A stretch of DNA of 64,000 bases. Origin: Thermococcus sp. P6. GTDB lineage: Archaea > Methanobacteriota_B > Thermococci > Thermococcales > Thermococcaceae. Position numbers and translations under genes: made by a program. How positions within the stretch are numbered: position 1 is the first letter of the stretch; each line of letters starts with the position of its first letter. The stretch covers positions 1,178,001 through 1,242,000 of the forward strand of contig NZ_CP015104.1 in assembly GCF_002214525.1 (NCBI RefSeq). Direction: 5' to 3'. Positions 18,333 through 62,102 of the stretch are shown piece by piece. The notes below the pieces were generated by a model that made no database searches, was not told the DNA's origin, and worked only from the letters and a program-made list of their open reading frames with translations.

Positions 18333-18365
18333 GGGACTCCGGAGTAACCACCGAAGAGTTGAAAG

Positions 18366-19135: not shown

Positions 19136-21380
19136 GTTCCAATAAGACTCTAAGAGAATTGAAAGTCGGTCTATGTACGACGTCAAAATATATATAGTTT
19201 TGTTCCAATAAGACTCTAAGAGAATTGAAAGGAGCCTTCCGGAAATCCCTCTCCTTTGTATACTTCATTGTTCCAATAAGACTCTAAGAGAATTGAAAGT
19301 CCCCTCCTTCCGTCGGAACCTTATAACTCAAGGAAAGTTCCAATAAGACTCTAAGAGAATTGAAAGACCGTCTCGAGAATAAGCACGGCGTGGAGCTATG
19401 TAAGTTCCAATAAGACTCTAAGAGAATTGAAAGACTACCATCACTATACCGGTTATAATGGCGTTTCCCGTTCCAATAAGACTCTAAGAGAATTGAAAGT
19501 GGCTCTAGCCTATAATCCCCATCCTCGACGATAAGGTTCCAATAAGACTCTAAGAGAATTGAAAGGCAAGCACAAGATAAGAGTATAGCTACTCCTGATA
19601 TGTTCCAATAAGACTCTAAGAGAATTGAAAGCAAAGATAAGCGGAGATGGTGCGGGCTTTATGATGCTGGTTCCAATAAGACTCTAAGAGAATTGAAAGG
19701 AATTCTTGAAACACTCAAAACGTGGTTTTCGACAAGTTCCAATAAGACTCTAAGAGAATTGAAAGTATGTGTTCTTTTTCCGTCCTCGTAGAATCTAATT
19801 CGTTCCAATAAGACTCTAAGAGAATTGAAAGGCAATGATAATATTCCAGATTGCCTTAATTCCGGGGCGTTCCAATAAGACTCTAAGAGAATTGAAAGAA
19901 TAAACCCGAATGACCTATACCCCCACTACCCGAAGTTCCAATAAGACTCTAAGAGAATTGAAAGAGGGGGGCCGTGGTTACCTCGAGTTAATAGACGCCG
20001 GTTCCAATAAGACTCTAAGAGAATTGAAAGCGACTAATGAACTACATCGACGGCATGGAGGTTATTGTTCCAATAAGACTCTAAGAGAATTGAAAGGTAA
20101 CTTTTTAGAGACAGTCCGAGGTGGTGCGCAACGGTTCCAATAAGACTCTAAGAGAATTGAAAGCGCTTTTTTTTATGTGGCTTTTTAGATGCTCTTAACA
20201 TCGTTCCAATAAGACTCTAAGAGAATTGAAAGCCAAAGTGGCTTGCTAAGGAATATGAAAAGATATCTCGTTCCAATAAGACTCTAAGAGAATTGAAAGA
20301 GGAAATAAACATTCTGTTTATCTTCATAGAGGGTATGTTCCAATAAGACTCTAAGAGAATTGAAAGAGGTATATGGGGAGTATACAGTCTTAGTTGAAGA
20401 ACTGTTCCAATAAGACTCTAAGAGAATTGAAAGGTTATCTTAATTTAATATAGGATATTAAGCTTATGGCGTTCCAATAAGACTCTAAGAGAATTGAAAG
20501 TACTATGGCTATGTAGTCGCTAATTACTTTTATCTCCGTTCCAATAAGACTCTAAGAGAATTGAAAGGAAAGCACACCCCCGTATAGCTGCAAAAGTTAT
20601 AAAGTTCCAATAAGACTCTAAGAGAATTGAAAGTCATCAATAGGAAGAGATTTCCAATCGTCCAAAGGAAATTTATCATCGTTCCAATAAGACTCTAAGA
20701 GAATTGAAAGAGATCATGGGGGATAATATGGTATTCGTCGTTAAACTGTTCCAATAAGACTCTAAGAGAATTGAAAGAGCTCTCTTATAGCGTTCTCTAC
20801 TTTATATGTTGGGGGTTCCAATAAGACTCTAAGAGAATTGAAAGTTATAATAAAACTTCACCATGCTACCGTGGTGGTAGTGTTCCAATAAGACTCTAAG
20901 AGAATTGAAAGATAAAATAAGATAAACTATAAAATTAACGCTTAAGTTCCAATAAGACTCTAAGAGAATTGAAAGCTTTCCTGGTGATTGGCTCGATCGC
21001 AATGCTCGCAATGGTTCCAATAAGACTCTAAGAGAATTGAAAGAGAATTAGTCGTTAGTTGAGTTGATGCCCTCGCTTTTGTTCCAATAAGACTCTAAGA
21101 GAATTGAAACGTGGTAGTGAACTTAAGGGAAGCAGGGAGGATAAGGGAAAGTTCCAATAAGACTCTAAGAGAATTGAAAGGCGATTTCGTCATATATCTT
21201 TATGCTTTAAAGTTTAAGTTCCAATAAGACTCCAAGAGAATTGAAAGGGCTGGTGGATTGAACCGGCCGTCAATAATTTTCTTAAGTTCCGATAAGACTC
21301 TAAGAGAATGGGGGAACTTTAAGGGGGGAGTGGGGGATGTTTCATCCCCCCTTCCAATAAGACTCTAAGAGAATTGAAAG
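19136..21380 (+). CRISPR. CRISPR array 1, 34 repeats
   Basis: Repeats are 30 bases, beginning GTTCCAATAAGACTCTAAGA and ending GAATTGAAAG, with starts from 19136 to 21351. The repeat resembles the P. furiosus repeat and keeps the ATTGAAAG tag found on Pyrococcus crRNAs. Most spacers are 36-38 bases; outliers are 47 (20634-20680), 40 (21111-21150) and 34 (20912-20945). Variants gather at the distal end: 21081 ends in GAAAC, 21218 has CTCCAAGAG, 21286 is decayed, and 21351 begins with C. The polarity fits a leader at 18621-19135. Confidence 0.99.
21286..21380 (+). repeat. Hairpin pseudo-spacer unit, copy A
   Basis: A decayed repeat (21286-21315, ending GAATGGGGGA) is followed by a 35-base pseudo-spacer and a repeat whose first base is C. 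The pseudo-spacer runs ACTTTAAGGGGGGAGT, then GGGGGATG-TTT-CATCCCCC, which forms an 8-bp hairpin. Three near-identical units occur in array 2. The tag ATTGAAAG before the pseudo-spacer is destroyed, so a normal crRNA from it is unlikely. Confidence 0.9.
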
Positions 21381-60035: not shown

Positions 60036-60593
60036 ATGCTGGTTCTTGCCTCATCGTCACCGAGGAGGAGGGAGATACTCGCCCGTTTCGTGGAGTTCGT
60101 GGTCGTTCCGAGTGAAGTGGAAGAGGAGTGCTCCATCGAGGACCCCGAGGAGTTCGCCGTGGAGCTGGCCCGGAGGAAGGCAAGGGACGTTCATTCCCGC
60201 ACGGGCGGAACCGTCATCGGGGCGGACACGGTGGTCAGCCTGAACGGAAGGATCCTTGGAAAGCCCCGGAGCAGGGAGGAGGCCTTCGAGATCCTCAAAC
60301 TCCTGAGCGGAAAGGTCCATCGGGTTATAACCGGCTACTGCATAGTCCACCCCGGCGGGGAGATCTGCGGGAGCGTTGTGACGGAAGTGAAGTTCCGGGA
60401 GCTCGACGACGGGCTGATAAGGGCCTACGTTGAAACCGGCGAACCCATGGACAAGGCCGGGGCCTACGCGATACAGGGCAGGGCGGCGCTCTTCGTCGAG
60501 TGGATCAGGGGGGACTATTACAACGTCGTTGGTCTGCCGGTTGAAGTCGTGTGGAAGCTGCGGGACCTCGGGTTCAACGTTCTTCGGGGATGA
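60036..60593 (+). CDS. Maf-like nucleoside triphosphate pyrophosphatase
   Basis: 185 residues. LVLASSSPRRREILARF at the N-terminus, GADTVVSLNGRILGKPRSRE, and DKAGAYAIQGRAALFVEWI are the Maf signatures. It hydrolyses non-standard or canonical NTPs. Its stop lies only 10 bases before the first repeat of CRISPR array 2, so there is no room for a leader there. Confidence 0.93.
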   Translation: MLVLASSSPRRREILARFVEFVVVPSEVEEECSIEDPEEFAVELARRKARDVHSRTGGTVIGADTVVSLNGRILGKPRSREEAFEILKLLSGKVHRVITGYCIVHPGGEICGSVVTEVKFRELDDGLIRAYVETGEPMDKAGAYAIQGRAALFVEWIRGDYYNVVGLPVEVVWKLRDLGFNVLRG

Positions 60594-60603
60594 GCTTCCC
60601 CGA

Positions 60604-60699
60604 GTTCCAATAAGACTCCTAAGAGAACGGAAGGACTTTAAGGGGGGAGTGGGGGATGTTCCATCCCCCCTTCCAATAAGACTCCAAGAGAATTGAAAG
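60604..60699 (+). repeat. Hairpin pseudo-spacer unit, copy B
   Basis: Decayed repeat 60604-60633 (centre CTCCTAAGAG, end GAACGGAAG), pseudo-spacer 60634-60669 with GGGGGATG-TTC-CATCCCCC, then a repeat starting with C at 60670. It forms the left edge of array 2. Confidence 0.9.
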
Positions 60700-61210
60700 G
60701 TGGCAAGACGCAAATCCTACCCCCGGGTGAGGATGGGTTCCAATAAGACTCCAAGAGAATTGAAAGTAGGCCCAGACGAAGAGCTCATCGCCGGTTATGG
60801 AACGTTCCAATAAGACTCCAAGAGAATTGAAAGGAATTTTGCGTTAGAACTCTTTAAGACCCAGTGCTCCCCGGTTCCAATAAGACTCCAAGAGAATTGA
60901 AAGTTATCGAACTGTTGCATAACTTCCTTGGCTTCCTGAGTTCCAATAAGACTCCAGGAGAATTGAAAGTTTTCTTTCTCTTTCCGAATCCGAACATCAC
61001 GATCACCGTTCCAATAAGACTCCAGGAGAATTGAAAGTATGCTTAAGACCTCCCCCACTGCTCCAGCTCCCACCACGTTCCAATAAGACTCCAGGAGAAT
61101 TGAAAGTTCGGTTATAGGAGAGAACCAAAAGTCCGGGTTTTGGGTTCCAATAAGACTCCAGGAGAATTGAAAGGACGTCACTTCTGCGTATCTTATGGTG
61201 TTTTTGGTCT

Positions 61211-61306
61211 GTTCCAATAAGACTCCCCGGAGAACGCGAGGACTTTAAGGGGGGAGTGGGGGATGAAACATCCCCCCTTCCAATAAGACTCCAGGAGAAT
61301 TGAAAG
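61211..61306 (+). repeat. Hairpin pseudo-spacer unit, copy C
   Basis: Decayed repeat 61211-61240 (centre CTCCCCGGAG, end GAACGCGAG), pseudo-spacer 61241-61276 with GGGGGATG-AAA-CATCCCCC, then a repeat starting with C at 61277. It is internal in array 2. Confidence 0.9.
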
Positions 61307-61343
61307 AGCTCCTCTATGGTCTCTGCCACAAGAGCCCTGTTCA

Positions 61344-61439
61344 GTTCCAATAAGACTCCTAAGAGAAGGGGAGAACTTTAAGGGGGGAGTGGGGGATGGA
61401 ACATCCCCCCATCCGGCGGGACTCAGGGAGGATTGAAAG
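61344..61439 (+). repeat. Hairpin pseudo-spacer unit, copy D
   Basis: Decayed repeat 61344-61373 (centre CTCCTAAGAG, end GAAGGGGAG), pseudo-spacer 61374-61409 with GGGGGATG-GAA-CATCCCCC, then a strongly decayed repeat that still ends in ATTGAAAG. It forms the right edge of array 2. Confidence 0.9.
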
Positions 61440-61445
61440 ATAAGC

Positions 61446-62102
61446 TTAAAGGAACTCCTCGAAGAGCAGGTCCTCCTTCTTTCCCCCGGCCCTCCTGAAT
61501 ACCTTCTCGCTCCAAGAAACCCGCCCGACTTCCCGGGGGCTGTGGGCGTCGCTCGCGAAGGTCAGCTTAACCCCCTGCCTCACGCACTCCCTTACGAACT
61601 CCGCCTCCGGGGCGCGGTAGCTGGAGTTTATCTCGAAGGCCTTTCCCCTTTCTCCGGCCAGTTTCACGAGCTCCATCAGGCTCTCCCGGTCGGGGTAGCC
61701 TATCCTTGAAAAACTCGCCCCGAAGTGCCCGATGATGTCAACGTTCTCATCTAAGATGGCCATCTTCACGAGCTCGACGTATTCCATCGGGTCGTTCAGC
61801 CACAGATGAACGCTGGCTATCACGTAGTCCAGCCTTCTGGCCATCTCCTGCGTTATGTCAACGCCGTTCCGGGTTACGTTGGCCTCGATTCCGGCCAGAA
61901 GCGTTACCCCGCTCTCCTCCTTCCAGCGGCGGATCTCCCCAAGGTAGCGGTTGAAGGCCTTCCCTTCAAGGTAATGGATGTGGTCGCTTATCCCGAGGAG
62001 TTTCAGCCCCCTGAGTTCGGCGGTTGCAACGTTCTCCCCTACCGATCCGGCCCCATCCGAGTGGGTCGAGTGCGTGTGCACATCGTGGGGAAACTCGAGC
62101 AT
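61446..62102 (-). CDS. PHP-domain phosphoesterase
   Basis: 218 residues. The PHP metal ligands are seen in DVHTHSTHSDG (7-17), ISDHIHYLEG, GIEANV, SVHLW, GHFG and SDAHSPREVG. It resembles stand-alone PHP proteins related to histidinol phosphatase or DNA polymerase-linked PHP domains. The substrate is unknown. It ends 6 bases from array 2. Confidence 0.9.
   Translation of the reverse strand: MLEFPHDVHTHSTHSDGAGSVGENVATAELRGLKLLGISDHIHYLEGKAFNRYLGEIRRWKEESGVTLLAGIEANVTRNGVDITQEMARRLDYVIASVHLWLNDPMEYVELVKMAILDENVDIIGHFGASFSRIGYPDRESLMELVKLAGERGKAFEINSSYRAPEAEFVRECVRQGVKLTFASDAHSPREVGRVSWSEKVFRRAGGKKEDLLFEEFL

Follow-up and report, generated by a model that had tools for sequence, protein, structure and literature searches.

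The window analysed here, a stretch of 64,000 nucleotides of Thermococcus sp. P6, carries two CRISPR arrays, both on the plus strand. Array 1 (19136-21380) is built of RF01319 (CRISPR-DR6) repeats, has its leader upstream and adjoins cas2 and csa3. Array 2 (60604-61439) has no leader and lies between the gene of a Maf-like protein (60036-60593, plus strand; PF02545, E 4e-60) and that of a PHP-domain protein (61446-62102, minus strand; PF02811); in many Thermococcus genomes the latter gene lies next to the end of a CRISPR array. The repeat type switches midway through array 2, from CTCCAAGAG to CTCCAGGAG, as if the tails of arrays had been joined. A decayed repeat fragment, GACTCCGGAG...GAGTTGAAAG, lies outside the arrays at 18333-18364, between convergent csa3-like and cas2 genes.

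A 34-nt motif, CTTTAAGGGGGGAGTGGGGGATG-nnn-CATCCCCC, was found on the plus strand at 21317-21350, 60636-60669, 61243-61276 and 61376-61409, with the loops TTT, TTC, AAA and GAA in that order. The first-pass annotation had reported a repeated unit of varying loop at 21316, 60634, 61241 and 61374; the copies were indeed identical outside the 3-nt loop, and dinucleotide shuffling gave 0.00 copies of the motif. It had also advised looking for a genomic protospacer; no fifth copy was present in the whole 1.52-Mb genome at up to 3 mismatches. The sequence CTTTAAG, which resembles a TATA box, occurs in all four copies.

In array 1, unit 1 (21316-21350), with the hairpin GGGGGATG-TTT-CATCCCCC at 21332-21350, is preceded by a repeat with a decayed 3' end (21286-21315; it scores 24.4 bits with the Rfam CRISPR-DR6 model, whose cut-off is 39 bits) and followed by a repeat that starts with C (21351-21380), whose CTTCC end can pair with GGGAG in the predicted fold and so extend the hairpin. 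In array 2, unit 2 (60634-60669, hairpin at 60651-60669) stands between the decayed opening repeat (60604-60633) and a C-starting repeat (60670-60699), and unit 3 (61241-61276, hairpin at 61258-61276) between a decayed repeat (61211-61240) and a C-starting one (61277-61306). Unit 4 (61374-61409, hairpin at 61391-61409) occupies the terminal slot, after a decayed repeat at 61344-61373 and before a badly decayed terminal repeat (61410-61439) that keeps only ...GGATTGAAAG and abuts the PHP gene. The 3' halves of the four preceding repeats are decayed (GAAT-GGGGGA, GAACGGAAG, GAACGCGAG and GAAGGGGAG), and the tag ATTGAAAG is absent from each. The claim of a decayed, tag-less repeat before every unit thus held for the four window copies but is not general, as in other species the tag is sometimes present in the upstream repeat (G039 and G067). 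Likewise, the C-starting repeat said to follow every unit is there, near-intact, after three copies, but not after the fourth. Array 2 opens with a unit 10 bp past the Maf stop codon, two of the four window units are internal and are each followed by a C-starting repeat, and every block of array 2 closes with a unit. Such a pattern would be expected from recombinational joining of array ends.

We read all the arrays of the 1.52-Mb genome, which has five CRISPR arrays and one solo repeat. The unit had been thought limited to two arrays, but diverged versions close two further ones (~593400 and ~669340; ACCTTAAGGGGGGAAGTTAACCGGCATCCCCCC and ACCCTAAGGGGGGAGTGGACTGGTATCCCCC), and the solo remnant at genome position 358961 holds another (ACTTTAAGGGGGAAGTGGGCCGGCATCCCCTCC). 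The array at 649109 ends without a unit. Four of the arrays have a leader, and these leaders are similar to each other, so the arrays of this genome are paralogues. The unit is absent from these leaders, which ruled out its duplication from leader sequence. End units were more alike within a species than between species (G071, G072 and this genome, G000), which indicates copying between arrays.

To see the unit beyond this strain, as the first-pass annotation had suggested, the search was widened to 94 Thermococcaceae genomes, one per species. A covariance model of the unit, 33 positions long and with E-values that are rough, gave 42 matches at E<1e-3, all in Thermococcus. CRISPR array ends and array remnants accounted for 26 of them, nearly always with the unit in the final slot and directly against the last repeat; the other 16 fell within a single gene, which encodes a hotdog thioesterase. 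A palindrome pattern gave ~40 sites in 23 genomes, again all Thermococcus, against five control sites. The possibility that an acquired spacer had simply been duplicated once in this strain was thereby refuted, the unit being present in many Thermococcus species. A looser pattern, TAAGGGGGN{6,24}ATCCCC, returned background only outside this genome, and a match at a gene start in G049, with 3 mismatches and outside any CRISPR context, was dismissed as chance. Searching Rfam returned no family for the unit, and the nearby matches were to CRISPR repeat models only.

In most Thermococcus genomes the PHP gene found here beside array 2 has a CRISPR array next to it. The last slot of several of these PHP-locus arrays holds TTCGAGGGGGTGTGGGGGACG-GAA-CGTCCCCCC, the window unit except that ACG/CGT replaces ATG/CAT; this comparison of array ends overturned the impression, gained from the strict patterns and the looser one, that the unit was specific to one species. 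Many Thermococcus arrays, some at the PHP locus, end without the unit. The Maf-PHP interval (60036-62102 in the window) is an orthologous CRISPR site in most of the genus, and several species keep the gene order but have no array there. In G066 (L167, ~1484) an array-less remnant behind the Maf gene contains two tandem palindromes, one of them decayed.

Twenty-one copies were compared from nine other species. Where the CAATAAG core of the following repeat could be read, the hairpin ended 1-4 nt 5' of it, and nothing array-like followed the last repeat. The orientation of the unit in arrays was always the same. Its 5' (seed) part varied between species. One array of G041 is made of an unrelated repeat, GTTTCCGTAGAACATAATTGTGTGGAAAG (RF01350), and its last spacer is the unit, which again abuts the repeat and keeps its orientation; duplication of arrays or recombination between like repeats therefore cannot explain this transfer. 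Terminal slots in nine other species, the unrelated repeat class and the thioesterase insertion together upheld the proposal that the unit is copied as a whole, and the same evidence points toward a small mobile element or an array boundary, two of the roles that had been offered for it. Several repeats at an array end in L085, from a T. paralvinellae MAG, are in inverted orientation.

The unit is ~28-36 bp long and has three parts: a run of G, the head GTGG and a GC-rich hairpin. The hairpin, whose middle is 3 nt long, reads GGGGGTGTGGGGGACG-GAA-CGTCCCCCC in most species and GGGGGGAGTGGGGGATG-nnn-CATCCCCCC here. The window loops form two reverse-complement pairs, TTT/AAA and TTC/GAA, which suggest inversion of the hairpin; inversion in one step is a better explanation than three parallel substitutions. 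The sequence GACGTTCCATC, found in the G048 gene and in an array remnant of G059, is the flipped state of GATGGAACGTC, with the matching stem mismatch. Arms that template each other would keep the stem perfect, and so its perfection by itself is no proof of function. The stem covaried at one compensatory pair only, and we make no claim of an RNA function from strong covariation. Whole units folded no better than shuffled sequences (z about -1).

The copies in the hotdog thioesterase gene form an in-frame insertion of 30 bp, encoding the peptide GGVGDGTSPR, between a GGA and an AGG codon (27 bp net in G048). The insertion consists of exact extra codons and is missing from most Thermococcus species, including this one, and from all other genera. 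Over 91 species pairs, third positions differed at 5.5% of codons in the insertion versus 44% in the flanking codons. On a tree of 38 genomes built from two proteins, PHP and the thioesterase minus its insertion, presence of the insertion required 9 changes, of which 7 were forced by well-supported branches, and its clustering was no stronger than that of shuffled labels (106 of 500 as low). From the 5.5% versus 44% and the 9 changes, the insertion looks repeatedly gained or copied rather than inherited; a single old insertion under selection at the protein level would be expected to leave the opposite pattern. Recurrent insertion, local copying between species and strong hairpin constraint remain as explanations for the near-identity of the insertions, and either of the first two would mean a mobile element.

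Rickettsia genomes contain palindromic elements (RPE) of roughly 100-150 bp that are inserted in frame in genes. The thioesterase insertion resembles them as a palindrome placed cleanly and in frame in a protein gene, with no frameshift and with patchy presence and absence among orthologues of different species. However, it is 30 bp long, and the Thermococcus element occurs in only one gene plus CRISPR arrays.

Weaker matches of the covariance model led to an intergenic palindrome, AAAGTTCT-GGGGGTGTGGGGGCG-TTAG-CCCCCCGGAG, present at 61 sites in 33 of 61 genomes, with 0 sites for the reversed control and none in the genome of this window. Its 5' side has AAGTTC and GGGGGTGTGGGGG in common with the CRISPR unit, and its 3' side CGGAG; CCCCCCGGA is shared as well. 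The two are likely homologous, judging from this short shared sequence. The intergenic palindrome forms mosaics together with other palindromes, frequently close to tRNA genes. Such a long intergenic mosaic was observed in L258-L269 (for example L258, ~2483), with AAACTTTGC..GCAAAGTTT, GGGGGCGTTAGCCCCC, GGGGAAACGTAGTTTCCC, GTGGGGTGGAACCCCAC and AAGGGGGCGGAGCCCCCTT; many genomes of the genus have it, frequently close to a tRNA or sR36 gene, and it has no Rfam family. The earlier worry that the core might be a common genomic repeat unrelated to CRISPR was half borne out, by the intergenic palindrome related to the unit; the unit itself, however, is overwhelmingly tied to CRISPR.

Bacterial REP elements are defined by a GT(A/G)G head that leads straight into a GC-rich palindrome, whose short middle of 2-4 nt is non-complementary (PMC2817692). 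The unit has this architecture (GTGG plus GGGACG-GAA-CGTCCC), and the GTGG is kept in its TGTGG, AGTGG and AAGTGG variants. REPs are dispersed between genes, as are the relatives of the unit in their palindrome mosaics. However, REPs usually number more than 100 per genome and are extragenic, whereas the unit had at most ~9 model matches per genome on both strands, is intragenic in 16 genomes and, unlike REPs, favours CRISPR array ends and one coding gene. REP elements also have Y1/RAYT transposases, whereas no RAYT-like gene was tied to the Thermococcus unit. The Y1 transposase family PF01797 occurred in 15 of 61 genomes, this one not among them; the eight Y1 loci examined held no copy of the palindrome, and co-occurrence of Y1 transposase and unit across genomes was not significant. 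Given its low copy number and the lack of a linked Y1 transposase, we did not class the unit as a REP. The ends of IS200/IS605 elements were not supported as its source. A limited literature search found no described Thermococcus palindromic element or CRISPR trailer hairpin.

With moderate confidence, we favour the explanation that the pseudo-spacer is a REP-like palindromic element of Thermococcus that lodged at array ends, was copied among arrays and yields no useful crRNA. Its main home is the terminal CRISPR slot, flush with the last repeat, and it behaves like a miniature mobile element, not like the memory of a virus. The palindromic element would move or be copied, lodge at array ends and then spread from array to array within a genome, through duplication or recombination; here, the two extra copies inside leaderless array 2 would each mark an old array end. 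Mutual templating of the arms would keep the stem perfect and flip the loop between TTT and AAA and between TTC and GAA. A useful crRNA is not expected because the window copies have lost the tag and the guide would be self-complementary, and at most the element may be an inert array cap. In Pyrococcus abyssi, the last spacers have degenerate repeats and their crRNA was undetected (PMC3124441); the unit likewise has decayed terminal repeats and no expected crRNA, whereas ordinary trailer spacers are unique and the unit is common to arrays, species and two repeat classes. Against a mobile element, our search found no mobilising enzyme (the Y1 family was checked in 61 genomes), and no target duplication and no clear target site were seen. 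The array position, always flush and always terminal, is also more precise than random insertion predicts, and the near-identity of the gene insertions could come from hairpin constraint or recombination between species.

The terminal position also speaks for a domesticated array-end structure, a possible function although an unlikely one on balance. Here the hairpin would close the 3' end of the pre-crRNA or sequester the 5' end of the last repeat, thus blocking extraneous crRNA from the chromosome beyond the array or protecting the transcript end, and selection would keep it while array duplication spread it. Every foreign copy examined was in the terminal slot, the unit is present in two repeat classes, the predicted fold would allow the CTTCC of the next repeat to pair with it, and one stem change is compensatory. 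There is a precedent in Cas13 arrays, where a leader-repeat hairpin blocks extraneous crRNA (PMC13187072); this too is a boundary hairpin able to pair with a repeat end, but it lies on the leader side, whereas the Thermococcus unit lies at the 3' end of arrays of a Class 1 system and any block of processing by it is putative. However, many Thermococcus arrays lack the unit, even at the PHP locus, as does one array of this genome; two of the four window copies are internal, whole units fold at the level of shuffles, and the thioesterase insertion would go unexplained. Somewhat less probable is a dedicated palindrome of CRISPR termini, a removable cap or end marker that would be delivered to the last slot across repeat classes, possibly by Cas1-Cas2 acting on a DNA hairpin, with the thioesterase gene as a rare off-target landing. 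We also judge improbable, a step further down, a very old ordinary spacer, in which an ancestral founding spacer taken from host DNA (the dispersed palindrome or the thioesterase gene, for example) stayed at the trailer end, fell silent through the decay of its repeats and multiplied when whole arrays were duplicated. The unit does fill a spacer slot exactly in two repeat classes, at the trailer end where the oldest spacers lie, with homologous leaders among the arrays of this genome and with the unit in the orthologous PHP-locus array of several species. However, array duplication cannot reach a different repeat class, normal decay would erode a palindrome, and the orientation never varies. 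The gene is an unlikely source, as most carriers have no insertion in it and its sequence does not match that of the unit in the 5' part. An ordinary spacer is unique and has intact flanking repeats, whereas this one is common to arrays and species and its repeats are decayed. Phage, plasmid and viral collections and contigs held no match that could serve as a protospacer, and a virus or plasmid source was dropped for want of a match in those collections.

Two further roles had been offered for the unit, and both fared poorly. Mini-CRISPRs of the CreTA/CreR kind are known from haloarchaea, and the unit resembles them in joining a degenerate repeat to a spacer-like segment, with a repeat after it. 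A crRNA-like regulator in this manner is nevertheless very improbable: the 5' seed part is unconserved between species, no partner site for the core turned up genome-wide with as many as 3 mismatches allowed, the guide is complementary to itself, and neither a toxin nor a cas promoter was identified as its target. We give even less credence to an internal promoter that would use CTTTAAG as its TATA box and re-start transcription in long arrays. All four window copies have this motif, and TATAAAA or TTTAAG precedes the hairpin in some species. However, the motif is missing in G016, G067 and G072, and copies at array ends have nothing behind them to transcribe. The G-run that immediately follows CTTTAAG is also unlike the promoters known from Thermococcus.

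The oldest end of a CRISPR array is usually seen as slowly decaying junk, but here it is marked by one palindrome across many species and across two classes of repeat. In a protein gene, those 28-30 bp seem to have appeared more than once at a single site. How very small archaeal palindromes move without an obvious transposase thus becomes testable, as does whether the array end is a landing place or a cap relevant to crRNA production; by the predicted fold and the Cas13 analogy, the unit may be a cap and stop processing where the array ends. A spacer common to several arrays is accordingly not necessarily immune memory. An ordinary spacer from the middle of an array (L036, 1153-1188 on the reverse strand) carries a different G/C palindrome, GGGGGATTAATGCCCCC.
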